Positions 37,016 through 61,996 of a stretch of 64,000 bases of DNA are shown here, in pieces. The stretch covers positions 1 through 64,000 of the forward strand of contig JACRBM010000054.1 of assembly GCA_016219275.1 (NCBI GenBank), read 5' to 3'. The notes below the pieces were generated by a model that did no database searches, was not told where the DNA came from, and saw nothing but the letters and a program-made list of their open reading frames with translations. Both the position numbers and the translations under genes were made by a program. The stretch's first letter is position 1; each line of letters opens with the position of its first letter. Source of the stretch: Chloroflexota bacterium. GTDB taxonomy: Bacteria; Chloroflexota; Anaerolineae; UBA4142.

Positions 37016-37157
37016 GCGGTTTCTCCGGGAGTGAGTTCGTGGTCAAAGACCTGGAAGGTTTTCGCGAAGCGAACCTTCCAGGTCTACGCATCGGCGCTGA
37101 TGCGTCGGAGGTGTACACGTGAATATTGGCATCCACCAACAAGTAGGATATTTTCTG

Positions 37158-37805: not shown

Positions 37806-37807
37806 TG

Positions 37808-40258: not shown

Positions 40259-40271
40259 GGGAACCTCCAAC

Positions 40272-41192: not shown

Positions 41193-41262
41193 TTTCGATT
41201 TCCGAATGCCGATTTTCGATTGAGCCGATCATAAATCGAAAATCGAAAATCATAAATCTAAA
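41186..41262. repeat. ATTTTCGATTTCCGA / ATCGAAAATCG repeat
   Basis: Words of TTTTCGATTTCCGAATGCCGATTTTCGATT type are followed by the inverse ATCATAAATCGAAAATCGAAAATC. They lie between the LarA-like and esterase genes and recur at 55840-55875. Confidence 0.75.
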
Positions 41263-42512
41263 ATTGAAGGAATGGTCACATTCCCCGCCGGCATCACGCC
41301 GATGCGCGCGTCGCGCGGGAGGTCGCGCAGCGCAAGCGTCAGCGCGGCGTCGAGCGAATCGCACTTGTCGAGGAGCAATCGCGTCGTGAGATCGCGCGGC
41401 ATGTCCGTCACCATCAACACACGCGCGCGCGTCGCATCGCGCGCGATTTGAAACGCCTTGTGATAACCCAGGCGAAACGGCTCGCGCTGAAAACGTTCGA
41501 GGACTTGATGCTGGGACGATACGTCGCGCAGATATTCTTCATACAGTTTACTTCCCGATCCTTCGGGACACGCGGCGACCCAGATGATCGTACCGCCGAG
41601 ATTCATCACCGGCATCGCGTGCCCCAACGCTTTTTGCGCTTGATACACGTTGATGTCTTTCGGATGTCCACCCGCCGACACGATCATCAGATCGAACGGC
41701 GCGGTCACCTTCACGCGATACACGTCGAGCGCGAGCGGCATCCCCGCGTGAATGACTGCGACCGGATCGCCCGCAAAAACGCCGACGATTTTCTTTTCCG
41801 CGTTGACGACCGGATTGAGCGCGCAATGCACGCCCATCATTTTTCCGATTTCTTCGACATCCTGCCGCGCGGGATTGTCGGCATAGCGCCCTTGATACGC
41901 GTGCGGGTCCAGCATCAGCGAATGATTGTGCGTGATCGTCGCGCGCCCCGCGACGCCAATCGCCGCCGCTTTGACGCCGCCGGAAAATCCCATGAATTGA
42001 TGCGGCTCGATGTCGCCAATCGCGATGCGTAGCTCCGCTTCGACGAACACACGATTTGCCAGGACGCGCGTACCGCGCGTCGTCGCGCCGAGTTCGATCA
42101 GATTCGCACCGTCATCGCAATCGTGTGAGATGACGCGATAATGCGCGAGGATGTCGGCAGGCACGACCGCGCCGAATTCGTCCGCGCGCATCGGCGCGTG
42201 CGTGCCGGTCGCGATCAGCAACGTGATCGCTTCACGCGGAACGTCGAGCCGCGCGAGTTTTTGCAAGAGCGGCGGCAGAAGAATCGCGAGCGGCACGGGA
42301 CGCGTCTTGTCGTTGATCGCGATGGCGACCGATTGCGCGCGCGCAAAGCGCGACCAATCGAATGCGAGCGGCGCGTCGAGCGCGTCGCTCACCGCGCGCG
42401 GCGCATCGGTCAACGGCGGGATCGCCGCGGGCGCGATGAGTTCCGCGCGCAATGAATCGGAAAGCGAAAATTCCAAATGTGTTTTTCCGTATGGAATTTG
42501 AAATTGCATCAT
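41250..42512 (-). CDS. Nickel-dependent lactate-racemase-family protein (LarA-like)
   Basis: This 420-residue protein belongs to the LarA/DUF2088 family of 2-hydroxyacid racemases that use the nickel-pincer nucleotide. Asp and Arg lie in AINDKTRPVP, His in IATGTHAPM, and EPHQFMGFSGGVKAAAIG holds the His and the cofactor-linked Lys, followed by ITHNHSLM with the further His. The family has diverse 2-hydroxyacid substrates beyond lactate. ATG at 42512 overlaps the exporter stop as ATGA, with GGGGG upstream. LarB/C/E cofactor genes are not in the window. Context suggests sulfolactate or another 2-hydroxyacid. Confidence 0.88.
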   Translation of the reverse strand: MMQFQIPYGKTHLEFSLSDSLRAELIAPAAIPPLTDAPRAVSDALDAPLAFDWSRFARAQSVAIAINDKTRPVPLAILLPPLLQKLARLDVPREAITLLIATGTHAPMRADEFGAVVPADILAHYRVISHDCDDGANLIELGATTRGTRVLANRVFVEAELRIAIGDIEPHQFMGFSGGVKAAAIGVAGRATITHNHSLMLDPHAYQGRYADNPARQDVEEIGKMMGVHCALNPVVNAEKKIVGVFAGDPVAVIHAGMPLALDVYRVKVTAPFDLMIVSAGGHPKDINVYQAQKALGHAMPVMNLGGTIIWVAACPEGSGSKLYEEYLRDVSSQHQVLERFQREPFRLGYHKAFQIARDATRARVLMVTDMPRDLTTRLLLDKCDSLDAALTLALRDLPRDARIGVMPAGNVTIPSILDL

Positions 42513-44930: not shown

Positions 44931-46100
44931 TCACGCCGAGCGATACAACTTGGTCAACACAAACTCATTGTGCCGCAACGTTTCGGCGGAGGTCATGCGA
45001 CCGTTGATCGTGCGTTCCAACATTTGGAGCGCGGCATCCGCGGCTTGGTCGAGATTCATTTCCAAGCGCAACATGCCGGTCAAATCAACATCCACGTGTT
45101 CGGACATTGTCGCGACCGTGAGCGGATTCGCGGACAACTTGATCACCGGAACGACCGGGTTGCCGATGACGTTGCCTTGACCGGTCGTAAAGTAATGGAC
45201 GACGGAACCGGCGGCGGCGCACAGCGTCACCATTTCGGCGGCGGCGGACGATGAATCCATGAAACTCAACCCAGGTTTGCGCGGTTCTTGCGCGGGTTTG
45301 AGAAAATCAACGATCTTGCAGCGACCGGCTTTTTGAATGTTGCCCAGCGCCTTTTCTTCGATGGTCGTCAACCCGCCGCGAATGTTACCTTCGGTCGGTT
45401 GCGAGCCGAACAAGGAAACGCCCTGGCTTTCCACGAGTCGCTGATAATCGTCGAACGCGGCTTTGAACTGCGCGGCGATTTCCGGCGTCGCGCATTGTTG
45501 CATAATGATGTCTTCGCCGCCGGTCACTTCGGTCGTTTCGCCGAAGATCAACGTCGCGCCGGCATCCGCAAGTCGTTCGAACGTGCGCCCGACGGTCGGG
45601 TTCGATGCGAGACCAGACGTTGTGTCTGATTCGCCGCACTTGGTGCTCATCGTCAATTCTTTGACGGTGAACGGTTCGCGCTGCAACTCGGTGGCGTAAT
45701 GCACGAACTCTTTTGCTTTGCGCGACGCAGCTTCGATCGTCTTGAGATCGCCGGATCGTTCGATGCTGAATCCGGCGACGGGTTTGCCGGTCTTGGCGAT
45801 TTCTTTGACGATCAGTTCAGCCCATTTCGGCTCGATGCAGATCACGATTGCGGCGGCGCAGTTGGGATTGCGACCCTGACCCGCGAGCGTGCGGAAGGTC
45901 AAATCCCAATCTTCGCCAAATTGCAAGCGACCGTACGGATGCGGCAATGCCATCGTGCCGCGAATATTCATCGCGACACCTTCGGCGACGGCGTTCGAAA
46001 TGTCGTCCACCGGAATGATGAGGACGTGGTTGCGCGCGCCAAAGCGCCCATCAGGACGACGATAGCCCAGGAATTTGAGGTCTTGTGGCTTGATCATCAT
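44931..46100 (-). CDS. UxaA/SuyB-type lyase, large subunit
   Basis: This 389-residue protein corresponds to the large part of altronate/galactarate dehydratases and to the beta subunit of (R)-sulfolactate sulfo-lyase. It has [21 protein letters not shown] at the start, the Cys/Ser block [20 protein letters not shown], and [47 protein letters not shown]. In E. coli UxaA the two parts are one 495-residue chain; here they are split, as in SuyAB. ATG at 46100 has AAAAGG upstream and overlaps the small-subunit stop as ATGA. The substrate is either a sugar acid or sulfolactate. Confidence 0.85.
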
Positions 46101-46381
46101 TTCCACCTTTTCGTTTTGAGATTGTGCGAGTGAACGTGCGATCCGCGCGGCGCCGCATCCGCGGCAACGCCGATCACGCGCCCGTACTCGATCACGTCTT
46201 TGCCTTTCGCAATGTCCTTCATCGCGACCTTGTGTCCGAGCGGAACATCGTTCACCAGTTTGACGCTGCCCGCCGGTTGCCCTTCGAGCGTGACTGCGCC
46301 AACATCGTTGCCGGCTTTGAGGTCTTCAACCGCAACGCCGACATCGTCAATTGTTTCGTGCACCAAAATGCCGTGCTTCAT
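46097..46381 (-). CDS. UxaA/SuyA-type lyase, small subunit (SAF domain)
   Basis: This 94-residue SAF-domain protein has [42 protein letters not shown] and the C-terminal GSHVHSHN, conserved in altronate dehydratase N-termini and in SuyA. It forms the lyase with the large subunit, binding iron at the interface in the known family. GGAGGTAGT precedes the ATG. It is translationally coupled to the large-subunit gene. Confidence 0.87.
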
Positions 46382-46464: not shown

Positions 46465-47970
46465 TTACACTTCACTTTCCGCCGCCATATTCACTGTGCG
46501 CGTTTGCATTTGCAGCCAAACGCCGCGCGTGATGAATGCAAGCGCGACGACCATGAACACCAGAGAGATCGGTCGCGTGAAAAAGATGAGCGGCGAGCCA
46601 TGCGAGAGACCGAGCGATTGCATCAGCGATGTCTCTAGCATTTTTGCCAGGACGGCGGCGAGCACCATCGGCGCAACCGGAAAACCAAACTTACGCATCA
46701 AGTAACCGATCACGCCAAAGATCACGACGACCCAGATGTCGAGCATCTGAAAGCGCAGACTGTACGCGCCGATGAAGGTGAAGGCGACGATCAGCGGACC
46801 CAGGATCGGAAACGGAATCAGCGCCATGCGCGCCCAAATTCCGACGAGCGGCAGGTTCAAGATGAGCAACATTACATTGCCGATGTACATGCTCGCGATG
46901 ATCGTCCACAACAACTGCGGTTGTTCCGTCATCAAGCGCGGACCGGGCTGCAAACCGTACATCATAAATCCGCCGAGCAAAACGGCGAGCGCCGGTCCCG
47001 ATGGAATGCCAAACGAAAACAGCGGGACGAATCCGCCGCTCGCCGTTGCATTGTTCGCGCCTTCGACCGCGGCGATGGCGTCCATCGCGCCTTTGCCGAA
47101 TTTTTCCGGATGCTTCGACACGCGCTTTTCGAGATCATACGCCATGAACGACGTCACCGCCGGACTGCACCCTGGGATCAGCCCCATGAAAAAGCCAAGC
47201 GTACCCGAGCGAAACATCGCCGCCCAAGTTTCCTTGAGGTCTTGCCACGACGGCAGCCATTCGATTTTCTGGTCCGCCAAAATTCCGCGCGCGCTCGATT
47301 CGACATTCAATAGCACTTCGCTGATCGCGAACAAACCCATGATGATCGGGACGAACTCGATGCCCGCCATCAACAAGGGCTGACCGAACGTCAAACGCGC
47401 GACGCCGGTAAGCGGATCGAGTCCGACGACCGCGGTCAGCAAACCGAATGCAGCGGCGAGAATTCCTTTGACGAGCGCGCGCCCGGAAAGACTGATGATG
47501 AGCGACAGACCCAGGAACGCGAGCGCGAAATATTCCGGCGGACCGAAGGCGAGTGCGACCTGGGACAAGAGCGGCGCGAAAAACGTCAAGCCGATGACAC
47601 CCAGAGTGCCGGCGACGAACGAGGTGATCGCCGAAATGCCGAGCGTCGGACCGCCGCGTCCTTGCAGGTTGAGTTGATAGCCATCAATCGCCGTCGGCAC
47701 GGACGATGCTTCACCCGGAATGTTGACAAGGATCGCCGTCGTCGAACCGCCGTACATCGCGCCATAGTAGATCGCTGCCATCATGATGATCGCCGGCGCG
47801 GGCGGCAGCATCGTCGTCAACGGCAAAAGCATCGCAATCGCAGCGGTCGGTCCCAAGCCGGGCAGCACTCCGACCAAGGTTCCGGCGATGCAACCGATCA
47901 AAGCGAACAAGAGATTGATCGGGCTGAGTGCGCTCGCGAATCCTTGCGCGAGCATGTTCCAGGCATCCAT
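46465..47970 (-). CDS. Tripartite tricarboxylate transporter large permease (TctA)
   Basis: This 501-residue inner-membrane permease has about 12 helices. It carries GTLVGVLPGLGPTAAIAMLLP and AIYYGAMYGGSTTAILVNIPGEASSVPTAIDGY, the TctA signature, and a second G-rich block SGTLGFFMGLIPGCSPAVTSFMAYDLEK. ATG at 47970 has GGAG upstream. Together with TctB and TctC it imports an organic acid using ion gradients. The adjoining lyase suggests a sugar acid or sulfolactate. Confidence 0.93.
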   Translation of the reverse strand: MDAWNMLAQGFASALSPINLLFALIGCIAGTLVGVLPGLGPTAAIAMLLPLTTMLPPAPAIIMMAAIYYGAMYGGSTTAILVNIPGEASSVPTAIDGYQLNLQGRGGPTLGISAITSFVAGTLGVIGLTFFAPLLSQVALAFGPPEYFALAFLGLSLIISLSGRALVKGILAAAFGLLTAVVGLDPLTGVARLTFGQPLLMAGIEFVPIIMGLFAISEVLLNVESSARGILADQKIEWLPSWQDLKETWAAMFRSGTLGFFMGLIPGCSPAVTSFMAYDLEKRVSKHPEKFGKGAMDAIAAVEGANNATASGGFVPLFSFGIPSGPALAVLLGGFMMYGLQPGPRLMTEQPQLLWTIIASMYIGNVMLLILNLPLVGIWARMALIPFPILGPLIVAFTFIGAYSLRFQMLDIWVVVIFGVIGYLMRKFGFPVAPMVLAAVLAKMLETSLMQSLGLSHGSPLIFFTRPISLVFMVVALAFITRGVWLQMQTRTVNMAAESEV

Positions 47971-47983
47971 GTTTGCATCTCCA

Positions 47984-48078
47984 GACCTCACCCCTCACCC
48001 CCTAGCCCCTTCTCCCCTTTCCTGAATCTGAAGTACGATTCAGGAGAGGGGGCTAGGGGGTGAGGAGTGAGGTGAGGT
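47984..48078. repeat. Long hairpin repeat CTCACCCCCTAGCCCC
   Basis: Perfect 16-bp arms at 47994-48009 and 48049-48064 enclose a second stem CCTGAATC/GATTCAGG (48021-48028 with 48037-48044). It lies between TctB and TctA and could form a very stable hairpin in the transcript, possibly limiting the permease level relative to TctC. Confidence 0.8.
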
Positions 48079-48085
48079 CTCCCGA

Positions 48086-48553
48086 TCAATAGGGCAACGG
48101 ACCCGACGGGAAATCCATCTGCAACAGCCAGATGAACAGCACGTAGATGAACACGACCGTGCCGATTCCCCACGCGAGCGCGACCCAGGATTTGTATTTG
48201 CCAAAGTACCAAATGAACGCGGTGATAAAGATGAGCGTCGTCAACAAAAAGCCGAGCGGCTGCATCAGCAGGGCGAAGAACACCATCAGCGCAAGCGCGA
48301 CCCACCACTGTTTCGAGCCAGCGCGGTCGGGCCAATCAATCAGCTTGTCGGTGTAATCTTTAGCGCGAGCACGAACGATCAGCCAGCCACCGCCGACGAC
48401 GAGCAACACACCCAGGATGACCGGCAACGTGCGCGGATGCAACATGCCGCCTACACTCGATGCGATCTGCGCTGACGCGGTCAACGCAACGCCGCCGATC
48501 ACGATCAGAAAAATGCCGGACGCGACGTCGCCAGCGCGAAGTGTTTTGATCAA
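48086..48553 (-). CDS. Tripartite tricarboxylate transporter small permease (TctB)
   Basis: This 155-residue protein has four membrane helices (ASGIFLIVIGGVAL; LPVILGVLLVVGGGWLIV; VALALMVFFALLMQPLGFLL; TVVFIYVLFIWLLQM). TTG at 48553 is the likely start, with GGAGG five bases upstream. The longer ATG frame would translate the GATTCGTGATACG repeat. It sits between TctC and TctA, the usual order. Confidence 0.82.
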   Translation of the reverse strand: MIKTLRAGDVASGIFLIVIGGVALTASAQIASSVGGMLHPRTLPVILGVLLVVGGGWLIVRARAKDYTDKLIDWPDRAGSKQWWVALALMVFFALLMQPLGFLLTTLIFITAFIWYFGKYKSWVALAWGIGTVVFIYVLFIWLLQMDFPSGPLPY

Positions 48554-48565
48554 GGGAACCTCCAT

Positions 48566-48650
48566 GAGATCGTGATTCGTGATACGTGGCGCATGATCGT
48601 CAAATTTCGAATTTCGAATCACGCATCACGTATCACGCATTACGAATTAC
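48566..48650. repeat. GATTCGTGATACG / GAATCACGCATCACG repeat
   Basis: GATCGTGATTCGTGATACGT is followed by the inverse GAATCACGCATCACGTATCACGC. It fills the TctC-TctB gap. Confidence 0.75.
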
Positions 48651-49615
48651 TTGATGTCCTTGACCAACTCTTTATACGTCGCGAGCATTTTATCAACGTG
48701 CTCTTTGCTCTCCTTCGCACCCATTGCGAGCGGGACGAAACCTTGCTTCTTCATGTCGGCGATGACGTCCGGGTTCTTGGCGATTTCGAGATACGCGGCT
48801 TCCAATTTCTTGACGATGTAATCGGGCGTGCCGGCGGGAACACCCACACCGCGATCAATGGCTTCGATCATATCAACGCCGCCTTCTCTGAAGGTGGGCG
48901 CGTCCGGCAATGCTGGAAATCTATCCGCGTCCATCATCCCGAGCACACGGATTTGATCTTTGTACTTGACCAGGTCATCCGAATTCGCGACGACGGCGAT
49001 GACGTGCCCGCCGAGAAAGCCGGTCATTTGCGGCGCTGCGCCGGTGAAGGGAACGTAATTGAATTTGACGCCGCCCATTTTTTGCAGACGAAGGGTTGCG
49101 ATGTGATGACCGGAGAACGTGCCCGATCCGCCGATGGTGATATCGCCGGGTTTCGCTTTTGCGGCATCCAAGAAATCTTTCAACGTCTTGTGCGGGCTGT
49201 TGGTCAGCACGGCGAGTCCGAGCGGAGTGCGTTGAAAGAACGCGACGGGCAGAATCTGTTCGGTCTTGTAGCCGCTCTCTTGTTGCAACGGTTGCAAGAT
49301 GATGTGCGGCAAGTTGATACCGGCGACGTAATAGCCGTCTGGTTTTGCACGCACGAGTTCAGCCCAACCGACCGCGCCGCCGCCGCCGACTTTGTAATCA
49401 ATCGTGACTTTTTGTCCCAGACTTTTTTCGAGGAACGGTTGCTGCCGGCGCGCCTCGCGGTCCGACTGTCCACCCGGATCGAACGGAATCATGTAGGTGA
49501 TCTGTTTCGTCGGGTAAGGTTCCTCTTTGGGCTTGGGCGATTCGCTCGCACAGGCGGCAATCATCACCGCGACGATCAACAAACCAAGAACGAGTAGACT
49601 TGTCTTTCTGAACAT
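48647..49615 (-). CDS. Tripartite tricarboxylate transporter binding lipoprotein (TctC)
   Basis: This 322-residue extracytoplasmic binding protein has signal helix LLVLGLLIVAVM and lipobox IAAC, then the Bug/TctC fold (QITYMIPFDPGGQSDREARRQQPFLEKSLGQKVTID; GGGGAVGWAELVRAKPDGY). AGGAG precedes the ATG. Bug-family proteins bind carboxylates through main-chain loops, so the ligand cannot be read from the sequence. It is the first structural gene after the GntR regulator. Confidence 0.93.
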   Translation of the reverse strand: MFRKTSLLVLGLLIVAVMIAACASESPKPKEEPYPTKQITYMIPFDPGGQSDREARRQQPFLEKSLGQKVTIDYKVGGGGAVGWAELVRAKPDGYYVAGINLPHIILQPLQQESGYKTEQILPVAFFQRTPLGLAVLTNSPHKTLKDFLDAAKAKPGDITIGGSGTFSGHHIATLRLQKMGGVKFNYVPFTGAAPQMTGFLGGHVIAVVANSDDLVKYKDQIRVLGMMDADRFPALPDAPTFREGGVDMIEAIDRGVGVPAGTPDYIVKKLEAAYLEIAKNPDVIADMKKQGFVPLAMGAKESKEHVDKMLATYKELVKDIK

Positions 49616-49687: not shown

Positions 49688-50413
49688 TTATTGGCGCGAC
49701 AGACGAATCTTGTACTTGTAACGATCCGCGCGAAAAAAAGTCATGGTCAAGTGGATCGGTCGCATCGCGGTTGAAAACGTCAACCGTTCTTGGAGCAACA
49801 GAGGGGCGCGGCGAGGTACCCCTAGTTTGCGCGCGATGTCGGCATCCGCCGCGGTCGCGCTGATGGACTCGTCGGCTTCGAGCAGCGGAATGTGAAATTG
49901 TCGCTCGACGGTTTCGTACAGAGGAATGTTATTCAGGTCGAGTTGTGCGAGTCGCTCGCCGATTTCAGAAATCCAATATCCTTTGGCGAGCGCCAGCGGC
50001 TCGCCCTCCGCGAGATGAAGACGCTCGATCAGATAGACGTGGTCATGCGAAGACAATTGCAGCGCGTGGGCAATCTCCGGTGAAGGGGTCACCGACTTGG
50101 CGCGCACGAGTCTGTATTGGGGAACAATGCTCCGGCTGTGCATCTCTTCCGCAAACGAAGTGAGACGCGCGAGTCGTTCTTCGAGTTTGTCGCGTTTGAG
50201 GAACGTGCCTTTGCCGGCTTGGCGATAGATCCAACCCTCGCGCACCAATTCATTGAGCGCGCGGGTTACAGTGATGCTACTGACCGCGTACCGTTTAACC
50301 AGCTCGCGCTCGGTCGGTATCAGGTCGCCCGGTTTGTAAACCGCGTTTTGAAATTCGTCGCGCAACGTTTCGGTGAGCCAGCGATAGAGGGGCGAAAAAC
50401 GATTCGGCGGCAT
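49688..50413 (-). CDS. GntR-family regulator with UTRA domain (HutC type)
   Basis: This 241-residue regulator has an N-terminal winged helix (VYKPGDLIPTERELVKRYAVSSITVTRALNELVREGWIYRQAGKGTFL, about residues 28-72) and a C-terminal UTRA ligand-binding domain (HDHVYLIERLHLAEGEPLALAKGYW; RRAPLLLQERLTF). Family members repress catabolic genes until the substrate binds. GGAG precedes ATG at 50413. It lies at the head of the TctCBA/lyase genes with a promoter and a palindromic operator directly upstream. Confidence 0.92.
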   Translation of the reverse strand: MPPNRFSPLYRWLTETLRDEFQNAVYKPGDLIPTERELVKRYAVSSITVTRALNELVREGWIYRQAGKGTFLKRDKLEERLARLTSFAEEMHSRSIVPQYRLVRAKSVTPSPEIAHALQLSSHDHVYLIERLHLAEGEPLALAKGYWISEIGERLAQLDLNNIPLYETVERQFHIPLLEADESISATAADADIARKLGVPRRAPLLLQERLTFSTAMRPIHLTMTFFRADRYKYKIRLSRQ

Positions 50414-50434
50414 GGGGGAATTCTCCGTTGAACA

Positions 50435-50454
50435 CATAATAATATATTATTATG
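50435..50454 (-). promoter_or_regulatory. Perfect 20-bp palindromic operator (GntR candidate)
   Basis: CATAATAATATATTATTATG is a perfect palindrome lying just downstream of the -10 box, so it covers the start of transcription. It is AT-rich, in contrast to its surroundings. It is the best candidate for autoregulation by the GntR protein encoded immediately downstream. Confidence 0.75.
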
Positions 50455-50567: not shown

Positions 50568-53500
50568 TCAATCGCCAAAAATTTTCCAGTCCAGGTTTCG
50601 CGTCCCCACTCGCGATTCGCTCTCGCGCACTTCCGCGCCGTCGAATAACGCGAACACCGCGCGCGTGCTCAGATCTGGATACAACCACACTTCAAGATCA
50701 TCGCTAAACGCGCCGACGCGCGGCGGACGAATGCCCGCTGATTGTTCGCGGTCGGCGGTCGGCGGTCGGCGGTCGAACGTATCGAACGCCCGCGCGAACC
50801 GCGGCACGATAAACCCGCGCCGCAGAAACACCGGCGTGCAACCGAGCGGCGCGTCAACGATGATGCGCGCCAACCCGCGCGCCGGTTTATGCGCGTTCAA
50901 ATCCCACCACTCGCCCGGCGGCAAAATCACCGTGCGTTGCGTTTGACCTGGCTGGATCACCGGCGCAACATAGAGCGCGTCACCGATCATCCACGCGTCT
51001 TCAATCGCGTACAACTCGGCGCAATCGCTCCAGACGAGCGCGGGATGCCGAATGATCGGCGTGCCGTCGCGCGTGGCTTGCTTGGCGAGCGAGTACCAGT
51101 ACGGAAAAAGTTTGACGTGTTCTTCCGAGAGCGCGCGATAAATCGCGATCGTTTCCTCGTCGAACTTCCAAGGTTCGCGATTGCGCCCGATCGGTCCACC
51201 GTGCGCGCGCATCAACGGCGAATAGCATCCGACTTCTGCCCAACGCAAGTACAACTCTTTCGTCGTGATCGGCGCGAACCAATCGTACCAGCCGCCCACA
51301 TCCGACCCGTGAACTGGGAATCCACAGATGGACGCGTTCATCATCGCGCGCACGGCGGCGGGCAATCCATCGCCGTCGTCCCAGTCCGTGTCCTGGTCGC
51401 CGGGCCACTGCGCGGCGACGAAGCGTTGCGATCCCGCGTACCCCGCGCGCGGGTAAAGGAGATGATCGTCACCCAGAACAGATTGCGCCGCGCGTTTCAT
51501 CGCGTCACAATAAATCACCGGGTACGCGTTTCGCATCGCTAACCCAGATTGTCCATTGTAGAAATGCGAATCGGGCGGAATGGATTCGGCGTAGTCGGTC
51601 ATGACGCCGTGAATGCCGCGCGCGTGAAAAGCTTGCGCGACGATTTTTTGATGCCACGCCGATGCGCGCGGATTCGTGTAATCCACGACGGTTGCGATAC
51701 CGTGAAAGATGCGTTGCTGGTACGGCAAGCCCAGACGATTGCGAATGAAAAATCCATTGCGGGCGCCCTCGCGGTGCGTCGCCGACCCAGCATTCATGTA
51801 CGGAAAATGCCACACGTGAACGCGATAACCATTGGCGTGCGCGGTCTTGATGAGGTCGTCAATGTTGCGCCACCACTGTTTAGAGAATTCGTACGAGCCG
51901 CGCACTTCTTGCCAGTGTTCGATTCCCACTTGCGCGAGCGGAATATCAAGCTCACGAAATTTGCGAATGTCGGTCCGCACATCGTCCTCAATAACCGCGC
52001 CGGTATTCGTCTTCCACGGCAGGAATGACCACGCGGGCGGCGTGTCGCTGCGACCAGTGAGCGCAGTGTACTGTTGAATCGCGTCAATCGGTTTCGGTCC
52101 CGCACAGACGAATAGATCGAGGTGGTTGTCGAGCACAGTGAGACGCGCTATTGAAGGATGAAGGATGAGGGATGAAGGATGAATTTTTTCATCCTCCATC
52201 CCGCGAAGCGTGCCTTCATCCTTTGTAGAAAACCACGACGGCTTGTACGTATTCCAGAACAACCCAGCACTCGCGCCGCGCGCGCGCGCGAGGAGGGCGA
52301 ACGGAACCGGAAAGCCGGTGCATTGCTCGCCATTCGGGAACGAGCCGCGCGCGCCAAACCATTTTTTCGCAAGCGGATACAACCAGGGAAGGCGTTGCTT
52401 CATCCACTCGTACCCCACGCCGCCCTCTTCGACAAAAAAGTACGCTTCCTCGCCGCGCTGATCAATTTTGTTGAAACGTTGACCGAGACCCAGGATGTGC
52501 GCGTCATCCGACAAGTTGAACGCGAGCGAGGCGTGCGGCGTGATATGTGACGCGTGAGTGAATTCGATGCGAAGGATGTTTGCATCGTGGAACGAAAAAC
52601 GCAAATTCGCATCGGCAAAGTGCACGATAAGCGCGTGGTCGCGCGCTTCGACGCGTGTGACGCGATGGACCGGCGAACTCAACGCGTGCCATTTCATTTT
52701 CATCGTGTTGCCAGTGTACAAAACTGGGATCGCAACAATTTTTTGCAGCAGCAAATCGCGCGTCAGTCCGTTCTGCGGCACGTCGAGCTGGATATCGCCG
52801 CGCGCGTTGACGACGCGGAACGCGAAGGTGTCGTGCGCGATTTCGACGCGCAGTTGATCGGTGCTGATCGCCGCGCGCGTGTCGTTGATCGTAATGCTGG
52901 GTTTGATTTGCGCCGGTTCGCCGACGACGAGCGGCGGCGGCTCGACCACGTCCGTATTCTTCGCCGGCTTGAGCAACCACGCGGCGATGAGCGCGAGGAG
53001 CGCAAGCGCGGTAACCGCGAACACGATGCCTTCGATCCCGGTCAAGCCGCGAGTCTGGGCGACACCACCTTCCATTGCAACTACTGCAACCCAACGTCCA
53101 AAAAATTGCATCGTCCAGACCAACAAGAATGTGGAAACGGCAGCATGCAAAAACGATCCAATCACTGGCAGGACACGGAACAGAAACACGAGAGCGCGCA
53201 ATATAAAAATTCCAACCGCGATCGGCAATCCGATAAAAACGGTGATCAGAGTGACCCAACGAAAAAGCTCGAACGCGCCGGCGTAATCTGTCGCTAGCGC
53301 GGTACAAAGCATCAGGATGGTTGCTGCGTAGAGGGTTATGCCAAGTAGTATTGCGACAATCATTCGCCGCGCGATCAAAGCATAATTCGGAAAACGGATG
53401 ATCGTGTTCGTCACATAACTGTGCAAGACCGCCGCGAGAAGCGAGACAAGTATCCATGCTGGAATGAAACGCAACACGCGCGCCACTGGCTCATCATTCG

Positions 53501-53711
53501 GCGCTTGCGGCAAAACGCCAAGCACAAGCAGCGCGACGAGCAAGCCAGTCAACATATCAAGCGCGAGGACTGCCCAATAGCGCGACCCAGGTTTCGCGCC
53601 CCACAGCACTGCGCGCAAATTGCTCTCGCACTCGAACGGCGTGAAATGCTGATAGTGGATGAGCGCGGTTTGGAGAAGAACAATGATGAGGAAAATAAAA
53701 ATTTGATCCAT
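50568..53711 (-). CDS. GH31-family glycosidase fused to an N-terminal membrane domain
   Basis: This 1047-residue protein has about seven membrane helices in residues 1-250, then a linker, a GH31 N-terminal beta-sandwich (about 270-550) and the catalytic barrel. The predicted nucleophile is Asp706 in GVMTDYAES and the acid/base Asp804 in [20 protein letters not shown] and [19 protein letters not shown] resemble sulfoquinovosidase (YihQ)-type GH31, but the region matching its sulfonate-binding Gln/Arg/Trp reads IEHW...SKQWW, so specificity is open. Residues 497-520 and 981-989 are translated from dispersed repeats ([20 protein letters not shown]). It ends at a strong terminator. Confidence 0.85.
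50745..50781. repeat. GCGGTCGGCGGTC repeat inside the GH31 gene
   Basis: Three or four copies of GGTCGGC lie within the GH31 frame and encode RRPPTADRE at residues 981-989. It is of the same family as 6618-6655, 58926-58962 and 63908-63978. Confidence 0.8.
52150..52215. repeat. GAAGGATGAAGGATGAGGG repeat inside the GH31 gene
   Basis: GAAGGATGAAGGATGAGGGATGAAGGATGAA with its inverse TTCATCCTCCATCC lies in the GH31 frame and encodes a low-complexity insert ending [11 protein letters not shown]. The same family fills gaps at 35415-35480 and 44868-44928. Confidence 0.85.
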
Positions 53712-53760: not shown

Positions 53761-54132
53761 ATGACACTCCAAATCTCCCCCGAACAAATGGCAATCTACA
53801 AGCGGACCGCGCGAGAGCGCCAAGCGCAGTACGAGCGCGAGATGCGCGCGCGCCGCGAAGCCGCGTGGGTGGTTGCGCGCCAAGCCGCACAGGTACTCAA
53901 GGGGCGATTTGGCGCGACGCGTGTGATCGCGTTTGGCTCGCTCGCACACGGTGCATGGTTTCACGCGCGATCGGACATTGACCTCGCCGCAGAAGGCATT
54001 CCAGAGAAAGATCATTTCTCAGCATGGGGTTCTCTGGAAGACCTGACTCACGACTTTGAGTTCGATCTCATTCTCTTCGAATCTGCTCCTGAACATCTTC
54101 GGCGAAGCATCCATCAAGGAGTCGAAATATGA
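53761..54132 (+). CDS. MNT-type minimal nucleotidyltransferase (antitoxin-like)
   Basis: This 123-residue protein carries the nucleotidyltransferase motif [20 protein letters not shown] at about 61-80 (Gly-Ser and Asp-x-Asp) and a third acidic residue in FEFDLILFE. In the HepT/MntA systems the MNT protein adds AMP to the HEPN toxin and neutralises it. It overlaps the HepT-like remnant by ATGA. It is one of only two genes on the plus strand. The frame is intact although its partner is broken. Confidence 0.85.
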
Positions 54133-54415
54133 TCAATAGCTACTACGCGCTTGCCCAACGGATTCGTCAAGAGTGCGACGAATTGGAACGCGTCGTGGCG
54201 GCAATTCTGCGACACTGGCACACTTCCAAAACCGCCACCGACCAAGATGCGTACCTGAATTCAGTCGCGCTCGAAATATCTACACGACGAATCTTGTGCC
54301 TGACGAGTTGGAAAAACTCGTCGTTGCGCTACCCTCGCTCTGGTCACAAACCAAAAGTCAACTCGACGCGTTCGCGCAGTATCTCGACGGACTCTCACAC
54401 GCGGACGAAGACTAG
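54129..54415 (+). pseudogene. HepT-like HEPN toxin with internal deletion
   Basis: The frame starting at 54129 encodes the N-terminal helices of a HepT-like protein ([34 protein letters not shown]). Near 54273 homology jumps to another frame, in which RNIYTTNLVPDELEKLVVALPSLW and FAQYLDGL are the C-terminal helices. About 60-70 residues between the halves, with the region around the Rx4-6H catalytic motif, are missing. The gene was therefore inactivated by an internal deletion that also shifted the frame. The remaining open frame to 54581 is meaningless after the junction. Confidence 0.8.
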
Positions 54416-54477
54416 AGATGTGATCGAATCGGTTTCAATCGGTGGATTGCTCCACCGATTATTTTTTTCTCCACAAT

Positions 54478-55839
54478 CTATTTCACAGTCAACGGCACCT
54501 TCATCACGCGCGCGAGCATTTCCAACTCAGGCACGATTTCGCCATATGCCATCACGAGATGATGCTCCCAGCCATTGCTGAGAATTTCGTCGAGGAACGC
54601 CGTCCCATCATTGTCGAATTTCACGCGCGAGAGCGTGCCGCGCACGACCATCTCGGTGTCGAGCGCAGTCGCGGTCGTCGCGAGCATTCGCAGGTTGCGC
54701 CCATCGTCGCCGAGGCGTAACAACGTCACGCGACCTGGCTTGAGCGCGAACCCAGCCGTTACACCCTTGCCGCCAGCGAAATGCGAGAAGAGATGCGTGG
54801 GCTGTTTCGGATCGGCAAGCCCAACCGGACCACAACCACCATGCCACATCAATCCCGTATTCGATTCTTGATCCACCGAAACAAAATCGGTGAGGAAGGG
54901 ATGAATGCCGGTCAACCGACGCGCGATGAGCGTCGTGATCGTGCCCATAATGTCGCCTTCGCAACCGGTGTAGATGCCGCGATCATTTAGAATCGAAACG
55001 ACGCCGCACCCCGCAATGCCATACGCCTCGACGAGATCGCCCCAGCATTTCAATGTCATCGCGTCGAATTTATTTTCGTTCGCAAACTCGGTCAGCGCGA
55101 TGACGAGCGCGGCGAACAGGTCGCCTTGCCGCGCGCTGATCTCCACCACATCGTCGAACTGCTTGAGTAATTCAACAGATGCCGCATGCGCGCGATCTTC
55201 CGCGACGGCTTTCGCACGCGCGACGAGAATTTGCAAACCAACGTCCACAACCTCGACGCCGGTCGCGCGGCGGAGCGCGAGCTTGTCCACCGCGAGGTCG
55301 TCAAAGCCGGGCGCATGCCCACCGATGAACGCGATGCGAAGTTGTTTGAGATCGCGCAGAATACCGGCGACGCGCGCAAATCGCGCGATGTCTTCGATGG
55401 CGCACGGGTCATCGTGCGCGGTGTAAAGCACCGTCGGACGATGACCCAGTTTGTAGAGATTGCTCGCGTTCGTGTTGGCACCAACTAGCGAGTTCAGGCG
55501 CACTTTGCCGGTTTGCTCTGTCGGCTCGTGCCATGCCCACAGCATTAGCGGAATGTTCGCGAATGCCTGCGCGAGTTGCATCGCGAGTCCGCCGAGCGCG
55601 AACGTACCGCTGATGATGACGAGCGCGTCAATGTTCTTGACGCGCAGTTCGGCAATCGCGGCGTCCGCGTCCGGCGCTTCGATCACGAGTTTCTCCATCG
55701 CGCACAATTCGACGCCATCGAGCTGACCCAGGTTTGCGCGGGTCTGTACGTACCATTGTTCCGCGAGCGGCGCTTCGAAAGTCAATCGCGCGAGGCAGAC
55801 CACGCCGAGGCGAGTGGGAGGAGGATTGAGAAATGTCAT
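54478..55839 (-). CDS. L-fucose/L-arabinose isomerase-family sugar isomerase
   Basis: This 453-residue aldose-ketose isomerase-fold protein has an N-terminal Rossmann-like part (RLGVVCLARLTFEAP; DALVIISGTFALGGLAMQLAQ) and a metal site region (FDAMTLKCWGDLVEAYGIAGCGVVSILNDRGIYTGCEGDIMGTITTLI), where Cys/Glu/Asp suit manganese binding, then FVSVDQESNTGLMWHGGCGPVGLA. Enzymes annotated this way include the sulfoquinovose isomerases of transaldolase-type sulfoglycolysis. The gene lies 58 nt downstream of a short transaldolase, the same pairing. Ordinary fucose or arabinose isomerisation remains possible. Confidence 0.82.
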   Translation of the reverse strand: MTFLNPPPTRLGVVCLARLTFEAPLAEQWYVQTRANLGQLDGVELCAMEKLVIEAPDADAAIAELRVKNIDALVIISGTFALGGLAMQLAQAFANIPLMLWAWHEPTEQTGKVRLNSLVGANTNASNLYKLGHRPTVLYTAHDDPCAIEDIARFARVAGILRDLKQLRIAFIGGHAPGFDDLAVDKLALRRATGVEVVDVGLQILVARAKAVAEDRAHAASVELLKQFDDVVEISARQGDLFAALVIALTEFANENKFDAMTLKCWGDLVEAYGIAGCGVVSILNDRGIYTGCEGDIMGTITTLIARRLTGIHPFLTDFVSVDQESNTGLMWHGGCGPVGLADPKQPTHLFSHFAGGKGVTAGFALKPGRVTLLRLGDDGRNLRMLATTATALDTEMVVRGTLSRVKFDNDGTAFLDEILSNGWEHHLVMAYGEIVPELEMLARVMKVPLTVK

Positions 55840-55897: not shown

Positions 55898-56560
55898 TTA
55901 CTCGTAGGGCGTCGCGTCCCAGTTGTCGCTGAACAGTTTGAGACCTTTAGCAGTGTACGGATGATCGAACGCGTCTTTGTACACGTCGAACCCTGCCGTC
56001 ACAATATCCGCGCCGGCGACCGCCGCTTCGACAATCTGGCGACCGTTACGCACCGCGGCGACAATGATCTCGGTCTTGTAATCGTAATTGCGATAGATGC
56101 GGACGATCTCGTTGACGAAATGCGAAACCTCTTCGCCGTTCGATTCCTTCCAGCCGATGAACGGCGACACGAACGATGCGCCCATGCGCGCGGCTTGCAA
56201 CGCTTGCGCGCCGGAAAAAACGAGCGTGAGGTTTACGCGGATGCCTTTTTGGCTCAACTGCCAGCACGCCTGGAATCCGGCTTCGGTCGCCGGGATTTTG
56301 ATCGCAAAGTTTTTCGACATTGCCGCGAGTTTCACACCTTCTTCCACCATCGCTTCGGCAATCGTGTGATGCGGATTCACTTCGACGGAAATGTGCTTGT
56401 TCGTGCCTTCGAACTCTTTGGCAAGTTCTTTGATCACCGTAATGAACGGCTTGCCGCTGTTGCGCACATGACGCGGGTTGCTCGTTACACCGTCAATGTT
56501 CCACATCGTATTCGCGTAATGCACCTCGTCAATTTTTGCGCTGTCGAGAAAGAATTTCAT
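55898..56560 (-). CDS. Short (220-residue) transaldolase/fructose-6-phosphate-aldolase-type protein
   Basis: This class I aldolase-fold protein is the size of FSA/TalC enzymes. The Schiff-base Lys lies in FAIKIPATEAG (about residue 89). DGVTSNPRHV replaces the usual DGVTTNPS, and EVNPHHT replaces the usual EVIALD, so the active site differs from ordinary members. The rest fits the fold (VNLTLVFSGAQALQAARMGASFVSPFIG; DIVTAGFDVYKDAFDHPYTAKG). AAGGAGTG precedes ATG at 56560. It forms a pair with the sugar isomerase, as the transaldolase of the sulfo-TAL pathway does. Alternative: a sugar-phosphate aldolase. Confidence 0.85.
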   Translation of the reverse strand: MKFFLDSAKIDEVHYANTMWNIDGVTSNPRHVRNSGKPFITVIKELAKEFEGTNKHISVEVNPHHTIAEAMVEEGVKLAAMSKNFAIKIPATEAGFQACWQLSQKGIRVNLTLVFSGAQALQAARMGASFVSPFIGWKESNGEEVSHFVNEIVRIYRNYDYKTEIIVAAVRNGRQIVEAAVAGADIVTAGFDVYKDAFDHPYTAKGLKLFSDNWDATPYE

Positions 56561-56577
56561 TTTTTCACTCCTTGTGA

Positions 56578-57004: not shown

Positions 57005-58609
57005 TTATGGTTCGTACACTGTTTCCGGATTTTTATGCAGCACCATCGTCGCAGTAGTGAGCGCCATCACCGCGCCGCTCGCCGCGGTTTGCAGCGCCTC
57101 GCGCAGAACGCCCGCCGCATCCATGATGCCCGCTTCATCCATCGCGACGATTTGTTCATTCATCGCGTCGTAACCGAAATTAGCGCCGCGGGCTTGCGTC
57201 TCGGCGCGCAACGCGGACGGCGCACCCACGCCCGCGTTCGCCGCGATGCAACGGAACGGTTCCGCGAGCGCGCGCCGGACAACCTCGACGCCGAACGCTT
57301 CATCGCCGCGCGCGTCAAGTTGATCAAGCGCGGGAATGCAATTGAGATACGCGACGCCGCCCCCGGCAACTACGCCTTCGCGCAACGCCAGCGGCAACGC
57401 GCGCATCGCTTTCTCTGCGTGCTGTCGAATCACACCGCGCTCCGCTTCGGTGTGCGCGCCGATCATCAACTTGGCGACCTGACCACCCAGCCGCGCGATC
57501 CGCATTCGCAAATGTGCGTACTTGTCGTCGTTTTCATCGAGCATTACGAGTTGTGCGCGCAACGCGTCCGCGTGTTGTTTGATCGCGTCGGGATCACCTT
57601 CGCCCGCGATAAGGATCAACTCGTCCGCGTCCGCTTGTACGCGCGGCGCGGCACCCAGGTCGGTCGGCTCGATGGCGCGCAACAAACGTCCGGTGTCCGG
57701 CGAAAGAACCGTCGCGCCGGTCAACACGGCGAGGTCGTCAAAATCGAGTTGGCGTTTCGATTCCATGTCGCGCAATTCCGCCGCGAGAATTTTCAGTTTG
57801 CCTTGCTGGTGATTCAGCACGAGCGTCGTCAACGCCGTGCTCGAAATGTTCTTGGCGATGATCGCGACTTGATGCCACGATGTAGCCGCGACCATTTCGA
57901 GCAAAGGTTGTACATCGTCGAGATTCATCACGTCGCCCGCGTACAACACGACGTGGCAGTTTTCGATGACCGCGCGGCGCGTGCCTGGATCGGTGATCAA
58001 GTACGGCGAAACGAGTTTCCCGTTCCAGCGTCCGCCTTCATAGTACTGTCGTTCGAGGTACGGCGCGAGATAATCCTCGATCGTCACGAACGCATCGGGA
58101 CCGAGTTTGCCGAAAATTTCTGCGAGCACGGCGCTCAATTTTTCATCGCCAGTGATCGTCGTCGCGACGCGCGTGAGATCGTTGTGCGCGTTGACCGGAC
58201 GCGCTTGCGCGCGCAACGCGTCCACCGCCGCGCGCGTCGCGCAATCCATGCCGCGTCGCAACATCATCGCGTTGCCGCCCGCGGCGATAAAGCGATGCGC
58301 GTGCTCCAGCATCGCGCGCGCGAGCACCGCGGCGGTCGCGCAACCGTCGCCGACGCGCAAGTGTTGCCGCCACACGAGATTGCGCGCGAGCATCGCGCCG
58401 ACATCTTGCGCGCGATCCGGCAACGCGATGATGCGCCGCGCGATCATCGCCGCATCGCTCAACATCTCGACCGCACGCGTTTCGTGTTGCGACAGAATCA
58501 CGCCTTGCGTGGGACCGAGCGTATGCGCGAGCAAATCGGCGATTTGATCAAAGCCGCGTTTCAGTGCGGTCGTTGCTGGTTGTCCTTGTAGCAGTTGTGG
58601 TATGGGCAT
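57005..58609 (-). CDS. Divergent GroEL-family chaperonin paralogue
   Basis: This 534-residue group I chaperonin aligns throughout: LAHTLGPTQGVIL, the ATP-binding VGDGCATAAVLARAML (usual GDGTTTA), LREGVVAGGGVAYLNCIP and the C-terminal GIMDAAGVLREALQTAASGAV. The Asp of GDG is kept. The apical domain is strongly diverged, and the Gly-Gly-Met tail is absent. No groES is next to it. It is a second copy rather than the housekeeping GroEL. Its position between a MoaD-like gene/AOR and the transaldolase suggests assistance to enzymes of this operon; that is inference. Confidence 0.85.
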   Translation of the reverse strand: MPIPQLLQGQPATTALKRGFDQIADLLAHTLGPTQGVILSQHETRAVEMLSDAAMIARRIIALPDRAQDVGAMLARNLVWRQHLRVGDGCATAAVLARAMLEHAHRFIAAGGNAMMLRRGMDCATRAAVDALRAQARPVNAHNDLTRVATTITGDEKLSAVLAEIFGKLGPDAFVTIEDYLAPYLERQYYEGGRWNGKLVSPYLITDPGTRRAVIENCHVVLYAGDVMNLDDVQPLLEMVAATSWHQVAIIAKNISSTALTTLVLNHQQGKLKILAAELRDMESKRQLDFDDLAVLTGATVLSPDTGRLLRAIEPTDLGAAPRVQADADELILIAGEGDPDAIKQHADALRAQLVMLDENDDKYAHLRMRIARLGGQVAKLMIGAHTEAERGVIRQHAEKAMRALPLALREGVVAGGGVAYLNCIPALDQLDARGDEAFGVEVVRRALAEPFRCIAANAGVGAPSALRAETQARGANFGYDAMNEQIVAMDEAGIMDAAGVLREALQTAASGAVMALTTATMVLHKNPETVYEP

Positions 58610-58925: not shown

Positions 58926-58962
58926 CGCGCGCGGTCTGCCGTCTGCGGTCGGCGGTCAGACT
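58926..58962. repeat. GGTCTGCCGTCTGCGGTCGGCGGTCAG repeat
   Basis: A tandem of GCGGTC words between AOR and the MoaD-like gene. It supplies the last codons and stop of AOR (LLPV). Confidence 0.7.
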
Positions 58963-60854
58963 GGCAGCAAATCCGCGACCCACTCGATACCCAGGTCGCG
59001 CAATTTTTCGCGCGTTGGAATACCTTGCGCGTTCCAACCTTTTTGTTCGTAGAGTTCGACGATTGCCTGTGCGAAATCGGGTTGCGAAATCCCGACGCCT
59101 TGCAACGCGCCGTTCTCCAACGGTTGGAATAATCGTTCGGGCAGCGTGTCCTCTTGCGCGGTGAATCCTTCGCGCACGTTGAACGCGCGCGCCATGTTCG
59201 TCGCGCGTTCGCCGATTCGCATCACATCTTGCGCCGTCCAATCCCAGCCCGTCGCCGCGCGCATGACGTTGACGAGTTCGTCCACCTGAATGAACGAACG
59301 CGGCGCGACGCCAAAGAAACACATCCCGGTCACTTTTTCCGCGCTCGTCCAGTTTTCCAGAATGTAATAGTTGCGAACTTTGCGCGGACTCAACTCGCGC
59401 GGCGGAACCGCTTCGATGCCGAGCGGTTGCGCGCCTTTGAAACTGACGGATTCGGGATTGGCGACTGCCCCATCGTGCGGCGCGGTCAAGTGATCCGCGC
59501 CGCATTCGTTGATCGCGTAACCCAACCCCACGCCGACCTTGCCGCGCGGGTCGTGCATTGGCAATTCCTGTCCCTTGACGTGCATCGCAAAATATTTTGC
59601 ATCGCCACCGATTTTTTCCGCCGCGCGTTTGACGCCTTCGGCGAGCAAATCCCCAATCCCTTCGCGCCGCGCGATCAGGTCAACCATTTGCAACATCGCT
59701 GCCGCGTTGCCAAAACGCAACGCGATGCCGCCCGTATCCTGGGTCGTCAAGAGTCCATGCTCGAAGCATTCCATCGCAAACGCAATCGTCGCGCCGCACG
59801 AAATCGTGTCGAGCGTGTAGCGATTGCACAATTCGTTCGCCTTGGCGATGGCTTGTAAATCATCCACCGCGCAATTCGGACCGAACGCGTCGAGTGATTC
59901 GTATTCGGGTCCGCCGTACTGATCGCTGACTTGATAACGATCGTCCACCTTGACTTCGCGCTTGCAGCGCACCGCACACGCGTAGCAACTCTTGCGCGCG
60001 GTGAGCAATTCTTTTTCGTAGGCTTGCCACTTGACCTTATCCACGCCTTCGAACGCGCCCTGATGGAAATTGCGCGTCGGCAAGATGCCGCCCGCGTTCA
60101 GTCCGTCAACCAGACCGGGCGTGCCCTTGTCTTGCAAATCCCAGGACTGCGGATGTTCCTTGACGCGCTTGGCGAGCGTCTGACCCAGTTCCGCGACCGG
60201 CTTGGGATCGTGCGCCCAGTTGACCCAACGACGCGTGCCTCGGACAGCAATCGCTTTCAGATTCTTCGAACCCATCACCGCGCCGATGCCGTTGCGCGCG
60301 TTGAAATGGCGCAAGTCGTTCGTCATGCCGGCATAGCGCACGAGATTTTCGCCGCCGATGCCGATCTGCAAAACGCGAATCAATTTATCGCCGTGATCGG
60401 CGCGAATTTTTTCTTGCGCCTCGAGCGGCTCGCGTCCCCACAAATGTCGCGCGTCGCGAATCTCGACTTGGTCGTTGTGAATCCAGAGATAAACCGGCGA
60501 CGACGCGCGCCCTTTGACCACAATCGCTTCCCAGCCCGCCATCTTGAGTTCCGGTCCCCAGTAACCCGCGGCTTCCGATTCGCCGAACGCGCGCGTGAGC
60601 GGCGAGCGCGCGATCACCGTGTACCGCGTTGCGGTGGAGAACGGCGCGCCGGTAAGCAAACCATTCGCGCACACGAGAATGTTACCCGGATCGAGTGGCT
60701 CGGTGTGGGGCGGCAGTTCCTTCAACAAAATGTACGCCGCCAACGCCTTACCGCCGGGATACAAACGATAAAATTCTTCGTCGAACGTTTCGACGCCTGT
60801 CGTTCGATTCGTAAGATCAACGCGCAAAATTTTTCCCGAAGTGCCGTAATTCAT
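58956..60854 (-). CDS. Aldehyde:ferredoxin oxidoreductase (tungsten type)
   Basis: This 632-residue AOR-family protein oxidises aldehydes to acids with ferredoxin as acceptor. The N-terminal domain has GKILRVDLTNRTTGVE, then GGKALAAYILLKEL and ARSPLTRAFGESEAAGYWGPELKMAGWEAIVVKG. CYACAVRCKREV holds three cluster Cys, and the fourth lies in the DTISCGATIAFAMEC region. The pterin-binding block EIPMHDPRG appears here as ELPMHDPRG. The ATG overlaps the MFS stop (ATGA). Substrate unknown; an aldehyde produced by the operon's aldolase is attractive. Confidence 0.93.
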   Translation of the reverse strand: MNYGTSGKILRVDLTNRTTGVETFDEEFYRLYPGGKALAAYILLKELPPHTEPLDPGNILVCANGLLTGAPFSTATRYTVIARSPLTRAFGESEAAGYWGPELKMAGWEAIVVKGRASSPVYLWIHNDQVEIRDARHLWGREPLEAQEKIRADHGDKLIRVLQIGIGGENLVRYAGMTNDLRHFNARNGIGAVMGSKNLKAIAVRGTRRWVNWAHDPKPVAELGQTLAKRVKEHPQSWDLQDKGTPGLVDGLNAGGILPTRNFHQGAFEGVDKVKWQAYEKELLTARKSCYACAVRCKREVKVDDRYQVSDQYGGPEYESLDAFGPNCAVDDLQAIAKANELCNRYTLDTISCGATIAFAMECFEHGLLTTQDTGGIALRFGNAAAMLQMVDLIARREGIGDLLAEGVKRAAEKIGGDAKYFAMHVKGQELPMHDPRGKVGVGLGYAINECGADHLTAPHDGAVANPESVSFKGAQPLGIEAVPPRELSPRKVRNYYILENWTSAEKVTGMCFFGVAPRSFIQVDELVNVMRAATGWDWTAQDVMRIGERATNMARAFNVREGFTAQEDTLPERLFQPLENGALQGVGISQPDFAQAIVELYEQKGWNAQGIPTREKLRDLGIEWVADLLPV

Positions 60855-61996
60855 CCTGCCTCCAAAAATCGTGCGCCCAGTAATCCCAGCATCAACACCG
60901 CGATGCTAGTGATCGCAAATGTCATCGGAATGCCAATTCCATCGGCAACGACGCCGCTCAACGCGGGACCCACGAACATGCCAACTGCATAGATGGATTG
61001 ATGTACGCCCATCGCGGTGGCGCGCTCATCGCCCGCAATTTTCTTGATGCTCATGCCCATCAATAACGGAAAACTCACACCCAGTCCCCAACCCAGGAAT
61101 CCTTGACCCAGGAAAACGGTGGGCAAGGAGGATGCCAGCGCAATCATTAACATGCCGACGAACATGGTAAAAAAACTCACACGCACCAGATTGCGCTCGC
61201 CGAGGCGCGGGACAAGAATCGAAGCCGCATAATTGCCCAGCGCGAATACAATGAGATGCCAGGTCACAATCGCGCTTTGCGCGAACACATCGCCGCCGAG
61301 TTGCTTGACGAGCACGACGTTGAAACCGAAACTAAACGCCCAATTGGGATACTGCGCGACCGCGCTCAACGCCGACGGCAAAAAAACATCGCGTCGCGCG
61401 ATGAGCGTACCGACACTGTGCCACGTAGGCGGTTTCGATTTGCGCCGGGTCTCGCGCACACCTAGCGCCGCAATCGTCGCGATCACCCCGACGCCCGCCG
61501 CGAGCCAGAACGCGAGCGAATAGCCCCCCACATCGTTGAGCCAGCCCGTCGAAGAGGTGGCGATTATGCGCCCAATCGTATTGATGAGACTGAGCACGGC
61601 TGCCGCTTGCACGGCTTGTTGCGGTGGGAACAAGTCGCCGAAACCGACGACCATCAGGACCCAGCCGCTCGCCGCCGCGCCGGTCGTCGCGCGACCGACC
61701 GCCAGCCCTTCGACGCTGTGCGAGGTTGCCATCAGCGACGCACCGACTGAACCCAGGATCAATGTGAAAATCAAAAACGGTTTGCGCCAACCGATCCAGT
61801 CCGCCGCGATGCTCAAAGGCATCCGACCCAGGACTTGCCACAGTCCGTACATCGAGAGCACAAATCCGACCGCGGACAAGTTCGTCGTCTTACTCTGAAC
61901 GTACGTCGGCAAGGTCGGTACGTAAATGTACTGCGACATCCAGAAAAAGAAAACGGCGGACGCGTAGAGCGCGATGTTCCAGCGACGGTCAGACAT
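60851..61996 (-). CDS. MFS transporter
   Basis: This 381-residue protein has 12 membrane helices with the loop GRMPLSIAADWIGWRKPFLIF (G-R-x3-S-x2-D-x2-G-R-K like) after helix 2. The second half has MGMSIKKIAGDERATAMGVHQSIYAVGMFVGPALSG. It is overlapped by the AOR start and overlaps the epimerase gene by 8 nt, so the three genes are tightly coupled. It may import the sugar or export the acid product; direction cannot be seen. Confidence 0.88.
   Translation of the reverse strand: MSDRRWNIALYASAVFFFWMSQYIYVPTLPTYVQSKTTNLSAVGFVLSMYGLWQVLGRMPLSIAADWIGWRKPFLIFTLILGSVGASLMATSHSVEGLAVGRATTGAAASGWVLMVVGFGDLFPPQQAVQAAAVLSLINTIGRIIATSSTGWLNDVGGYSLAFWLAAGVGVIATIAALGVRETRRKSKPPTWHSVGTLIARRDVFLPSALSAVAQYPNWAFSFGFNVVLVKQLGGDVFAQSAIVTWHLIVFALGNYAASILVPRLGERNLVRVSFFTMFVGMLMIALASSLPTVFLGQGFLGWGLGVSFPLLMGMSIKKIAGDERATAMGVHQSIYAVGMFVGPALSGVVADGIGIPMTFAITSIAVLMLGLLGARFLEAG

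Follow-up and report, generated by a model that had tools for sequence, protein, structure and literature searches.

Sulfoquinovose is produced in amounts of billions of tons a year. Two kinds of gateway enzyme are known for it, the GH31 enzymes of the YihQ type and the NAD-dependent GH188 sulfoquinovosidases (PMC10755693). Sulfo-TAL clusters are known in Thermotogae and Chloroflexi (PMC9594981, PMC12890257); there, a sulfofructose transaldolase (SF-TAL) and an isomerase are found together with the sulfolactate sulfo-lyase SuyAB (PMC9594981). A set of this kind, with an SftI-like protein in the place of the isomerase, is present in the window, the whole stretch of 64,000 nucleotides analyzed here. 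Different from the described clusters, however, the putative gateway enzyme in the window is a GH31 glycosidase fused to a membrane domain, which we call TM-GH31, and it is accompanied by a LarA-family racemase and an aldehyde:ferredoxin oxidoreductase (AOR). The review PMC12890257 mentions neither a racemase nor an aldehyde:ferredoxin oxidoreductase, and our literature search found no paper linking the latter with SF-TAL and none on a membrane-fused GH31 sulfoquinovosidase. Sulfo-TAL with SuyAB has been described from Chloroflexi before; what the window adds is a proposed gateway enzyme that is fused and divergent.

TM-GH31 is encoded on the minus strand at 50568..53711. The open reading frame begins with ATG and runs through 1047 codons (1047 aa) with no internal stop. 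Residues 1–261 (52929..53711) form the membrane domain; they are followed by the GH31 N-terminal β-sandwich (residues 265–424, 52440..52919, Pfam PF13802), the TIM barrel (residues 557–875, 51087..52043, PF01055, E 8e-56) and the GH31 C-terminal domain (residues 883–969, 50805..51065, PF21365), all on the minus strand. The three GH31 domains stand in order and each scores above its Pfam cut-off. Full-length fusions were directly seen in G006, G012, G005, G010 and G028, with 73%, 72%, 66%, 66% and 40% identity to the window protein, respectively; partial copies are found in G001 (in a disrupted frame), G002, G013 and G128 (locus L036). In independent Chloroflexota assemblies, the fusion recurs at 40–80% identity. 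An earlier note on this DNA, made from the letters only, had proposed a seven-helix membrane domain fused to GH31 in one frame and had named a sequencing error as the finding that could undo it; the full-length fusions in independent assemblies rule out such an error. In all three parts, whether membrane domain, sandwich or barrel, third codon positions differ most between the window and its relatives, which shows that the ORF is translated as one protein. The barrel is the most conserved part (79–89% amino acid identity) and the membrane domain is the least (40–56%). Judged by these comparisons, the fusion is real and translated.

The AlphaFold2 model of residues 1–261, which was built with seven homologues, contains seven long helices (residues 3–23, 43–66, 75–105, 110–139, 143–176, 182–211 and 227–246), with a pLDDT of 79.5 and a pTM of 0.79. 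The full-length model (eight alignable rows) agrees with it in the membrane part; the pLDDT of its barrel is mostly below 50. Pfam has no family before residue 265, and a sequence search of the solved structures gave no relative of the membrane domain. In fold searches, Foldseek returned nothing significant (best E 0.47), and the best VIA-align Z score, 7.9, is under the meaningful level for helical bundles; a likeness to the CysZ sulfate permease (VIA-align Z 7.5, rmsd 6–6.5) was treated as chance. Among 400 sampled Chloroflexota genomes, the domain was matched in three, its own, G128 and G028. A scan of viral contigs gave no match. Like TM-GH31, the DUF2079–GH31 fusions of other Chloroflexota (L086 485–4993 and L092 10072–14622) combine a polytopic membrane domain with GH31; different from TM-GH31, their membrane part is DUF2079, of about ten helices, the proteins are ∼1500 aa in length, and Tyr occupies the Q288 position of YihQ. 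The MYORG-type animal GH31 enzymes are membrane-anchored by a single N-terminal membrane helix, and they are not the closest to TM-GH31 by sequence in the phmmer search of solved structures.

To estimate the membrane side of the barrel, for which the earlier note had called, we counted Lys and Arg residues, which is a rule of thumb. Five members of the window's family (f1) have 10–13 such residues on the side where the barrel lies versus 2–5 on the other, suggesting that the barrel is cytoplasmic in f1 members; the counts of G028 are opposite, 6 on the barrel side versus 11. The note had also supposed that hydrolysis is coupled to membrane passage. If so, the membrane domain would serve for transport or as a lipid-binding module, linking the uptake or extraction of sulfolipid head groups to hydrolysis in the barrel. 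The polar motif QHFxPFExExN..WGA, conserved in the alignment of the membrane domain, would fit such a module, and so would the position of the TctA, TctB and TctC genes (46465..49615, minus strand; Pfam). These encode a tripartite tricarboxylate-type (TTT) transporter, a candidate for sulfonate uptake, and they were found beside TM-GH31 in the window and, at the same place, in G006 only. However, the membrane domain has changed more quickly than the barrel, it has neither a relative in Pfam or the solved structures nor a significant fold match, and the cluster already has MFS and TctABC transporters. We regard the coupling proposed in the note as very improbable.

In the phmmer search of solved structures, YihQ is the top match of TM-GH31 (E 6e-54); behind it come two other GH31 entries and additional ones of yihQ. 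With the NCBIfam model of YihQ (PRK10426), TM-GH31 scores 295 bits, below the cut-off of 553. We built two maximum-likelihood trees from 51 and 44 barrels, with YihQ and YicI as the only characterized references. The fused family forms a single clade (100/100) and falls on the YihQ side of a split supported at 100/98–99, a side that also holds the YihQ-type enzymes and the DUF2079–GH31 fusions; YicI and other Chloroflexota GH31s are separate from the fused clade in both trees. The kinship with sulfoquinovosidases that had been read from the sequence was thereby borne out, and a YicI-like or ordinary α-glucosidase placement was rejected by both trees, within the references sampled; the tree position among α-glucosidases or xylosidases that the note had named as fatal to its view was likewise not found. 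The fused clade lies outside the clade of motif-bearing sulfoquinovosidases, and its long branch (0.84) indicates a separate subfamily. A haloarchaeal GH31, the top plasmid match, groups with ordinary GH31s.

The active site was aligned with that of Escherichia coli YihQ (MG1655). The nucleophile D706 and the acid/base D772 correspond to D405 and D472 of YihQ, the aspartates that the note had singled out for alignment, and both are present in every homologue covering them. TM-GH31 thus keeps the retaining machinery of GH31; different from it, the GH188 enzymes, which likewise offer an alternative gateway where the classical sulfoquinovosidase is missing, have another fold and mechanism. Residues Q262, Q288, R301, W304 and Y508 of YihQ, which we take from YihQ structures to be the sulfoquinovose-binding set, are replaced in the alignment by Thr, E598, a gap, a gap and W808, respectively, so that the sulfonate motif, QQRWY or KERWY, reads T-E-gap-gap-W in TM-GH31. 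All fused homologues that cover the stretch from β-strand 2 to the following helix are nine residues shorter there, the R301/W304 loop is deleted throughout the TM-GH31 family, and the Arg/Trp clamp has no counterpart there. Chloroflexota YihQ-type enzymes keep QQ(Q/R)WY. E598 is the Glu of GIEHW and the only position of TM-GH31 that matches either motif. Since the Burkholderia homologue L183, which represents the second type of sulfoquinovosidase, has KERWY, the Gln288 position is not simply lost. The statement that the sulfonate pocket is not kept is right for Arg301 and Trp304, even to the deletion of their loop, and needs correcting for Gln288, where Glu598 stands as in the KERWY enzymes. 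We infer that the conserved residues K567 (of LPWK), R604 (of RGS) and W808, together with E598, are candidate substitute contacts of the sulfonate.

Like the YihQ/SqvD/SftG sulfoquinovosidases, TM-GH31 combines the GH31 fold, the catalytic Asp pair and the RAGxxGSQ...GDQ.xDW blocks with a location in a sulfoglycolysis cluster, and they are its nearest relatives in the PDB search; unlike them, it has the seven-helix domain, lacks the R301/W304 loop and forms its own clade. It is therefore sulfoquinovosidase-like by context, yet stands apart from the YihQ type in motif, in score and in clade.

The sulfoglycolysis genes adjacent to TM-GH31 are those of SF-TAL, an SftI-like isomerase and SuyAB. 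The SF-TAL/SqvA-type sulfofructose transaldolase-like enzyme (55898..56563, minus strand) has Bacillus megaterium BmSF-TAL (8bc3) as its best PDB match, at 284 bits versus 152 for the next transaldolase; the Schiff-base residue Lys89 of BmSF-TAL (PMC12890257) aligns to a Lys in the window protein. The SftI-like protein of the sulfoquinovose isomerase family (54478..55839, minus strand) has NCBIfam NF048012 as its best model, with 226 bits and a cut-off of 700. The SuyB-like large subunit of sulfolactate sulfo-lyase (44931..46106, minus strand), assigned by homologue identity, is 58–63% identical to Cupriavidus, Paracoccus and Sinorhizobium homologues, after which identity drops to 38%; the Cupriavidus homologue adjoins hpsN/hpsO. 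Just upstream of suyB, one 94-residue ORF (46097..46381, minus strand) encodes the SuyA-like small subunit, which aligns with the N-terminal portion of the galactarate dehydratase model, and SuyA homologues adjoin SuyB in other SF-TAL loci as well. The SuyAB assignment is thus supported by an adjacent SuyA and by a SuyB similarity that clearly exceeds that to other GD_AH enzymes.

Further members of the cluster are, on the minus strand, a LarA-family racemase of the malate-racemase type (41250..42512, start approximate; Pfam Lar_N/LarA_C; best NCBIfam model LarAH5, above its cut-off), a GntR-UTRA regulator (49688..50437; Pfam), the AOR (58956..60854; Pfam AFOR_N/C) and an MFS transporter (60851..61996; Pfam MFS_1), the last of which is kept in G001, G002, G006, G012 and G013. 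A divergent Cpn60/GroEL-like protein (57005–58609) is conserved within the cluster of f1 genomes. Neither the sulfolactaldehyde (SLA) dehydrogenase SlaB nor the reductase YihU was found among the neighbors scanned; AOR is there instead, and we regard it as a candidate for sulfolactaldehyde oxidation using ferredoxin rather than NAD. Sulfolactate is the sulfonate analogue of malate; by this analogy, LarA may be a one-enzyme sulfolactate racemase in place of the SlcC/ComC pair.

The substrate might be the glycoside of another sulfosugar, for example an α-sulfofucoside or a sulforhamnoside, whose ketose a divergent isomerase and transaldolase would handle. Besides the loss of the QQRWY/KERWY pocket, the distance of the isomerase from the SftI model speaks for this, the three SF-TAL copies of the genome could serve different sulfosugars, and sulfofucosidases are expected, although none has been identified so far (PMC12421959). 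However, the SF-TAL is far nearer to BmSF-TAL than to any other transaldolase. The divergence of the isomerase is also general: another Anaerolineae genome, G186, has a YihQ-type enzyme of 641.8 bits, above the cut-off of 553, in a cluster of canonical form with an SftI-like isomerase, SF-TAL, SuyA, SuyB and LarA, and this isomerase, at 292.9 bits, is below the cut-off too. We consider another sulfosugar quite improbable.

The gene linkage was directly observed in other genomes. The core gene set was seen again on contigs of G006, G012, G005, G010, G001 and G013; TM-GH31, SF-TAL and SuyB lie in one cluster on the contigs of the first five, as they do in the window's own genome (G000), and on split contigs in G013. 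One contig of G128, a genome from another class, encodes SF-TAL, LarA and the membrane part of TM-GH31. The SftI-like isomerase adjoins TM-GH31 in G001, G005, G010 and G013; G006 and G012 have no adjacent isomerase but one elsewhere in each genome. At a threshold of at least 75% identity, SF-TAL is present in 9 of the 14 f1 genomes; TM-GH31 was found in eight of these nine and in none of the five without SF-TAL (Fisher p 0.003, kinship ignored). Across the class, SF-TAL occurs in 38 of 396 genomes, often with SftI-like, SuyAB, LarA and AOR genes.

G028, where the fusion is present at 40% identity, has no SF-TAL, SftI or SuyB in its genome, which indicates that the fusion as such is independent of sulfosugars. 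Its homologue, outside any sulfosugar locus, speaks for TM-GH31 being an ordinary membrane-anchored α-glycosidase (a glucosidase, galactosidase or similar) that has no sulfonate specificity and supplies carbon or acts on a lipid partner; the absence of the known sulfonate pocket and the fusion of DUF2079 to GH31 elsewhere would agree with this. Set against it are the linkage with SF-TAL and SuyB, which is kept across genera, the SF-TAL linkage in another class, and the side of the tree, which TM-GH31 shares with sulfoquinovosidases. TM-GH31 is also the sole GH31 found in G000. An ordinary glycosidase seems unlikely to us.

The earlier note had proposed a new specificity and had missed the neighborhood, a sulfo-TAL and sulfolactate-sulfolyase cluster. 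Judged by this conserved neighborhood, the substrate would be sulfoquinovose or a closely related sulfosugar, bound by a different pocket; a specificity away from sulfosugars is not supported. It is fairly probable, in our judgment, that TM-GH31 is a membrane-tethered gateway α-glycosidase that has an altered sulfonate pocket and acts on sulfoquinovose or a close sulfosugar. As a retaining enzyme, it would work at the membrane on glycosides such as sulfoquinovosyl glycerol and release sulfoquinovose, or a very similar sulfosugar, from them; it would fill the place that the soluble YihQ-type sulfoquinovosidase takes in another sulfo-TAL cluster of this class. The SftI-like enzyme would isomerize the released sugar, and SF-TAL would cleave the product to sulfolactaldehyde, moving the C3 unit to a glycolytic acceptor. 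Sulfolactaldehyde would be oxidized to sulfolactate, perhaps by AOR; this would be racemized, perhaps by LarA, before SuyAB removes the sulfonate group to give pyruvate and sulfite. A bolder reading, which we put forward as tentative, is that the membrane GH31, so far found in Chloroflexota only, represents a third type of gateway glycosidase for sulfosugars, with a pocket unrelated to the Arg/Trp clamp, which attacks the head groups of sulfolipids directly at the membrane and possibly includes a sulfofucosidase. If TM-GH31 is a sulfosugar gateway, GH31 has a second way to hold a sulfonate; searches with the YihQ signature would miss the enzyme or call it an α-glucosidase, and sulfolipid turnover by these Chloroflexota would be undercounted.

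Several minor observations were made at this and the related loci. G000 carries SF-TAL twice more (90% and 78%), on contigs C103 (L146) and C91 (L147); a GH4 enzyme, a LarA-like protein and another SftI-like isomerase lie beside one of these copies. In G010 and G001, a GH31 of a second type, ∼800 aa in length and found with ABC transporter genes, adjoins the cluster, and G004 has only this type of GH31, with a GH4-family enzyme and no TM-GH31; these cases count against TM-GH31 as the gateway enzyme. Loci of the second type are L148 12957–16973, L045 2233–4626 and L047 8301–10709. LarA-family proteins recur in the Anaerolineae SF-TAL/SuyAB clusters (L099 16488–17756, L148 5766–7031, and the loci L154, L155, L162, L165, L166, L170 and L174), and AOR genes adjoin SF-TAL in many Anaerolineae, at the loci L148, L150, L154, L155, L160, L161, L163, L167, L170, L171 and L174.

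In the window itself, a cytochrome P450 gene (43613–44902) lies between SuyB and LarA, where no such gene was seen in the relatives. A glycyl radical enzyme and its activase (35486–40273) were not found on the relatives' contigs; among specific NCBIfam models, those for hydroxyproline dehydratase and sulfopropanediol lyases fit best, but every score is well under its cut-off. Between the GH31 and isomerase genes (53761–54581), one nucleotidyltransferase-like ORF on the plus strand is accompanied by a second short ORF, possibly as an MNT/HEPN pair.
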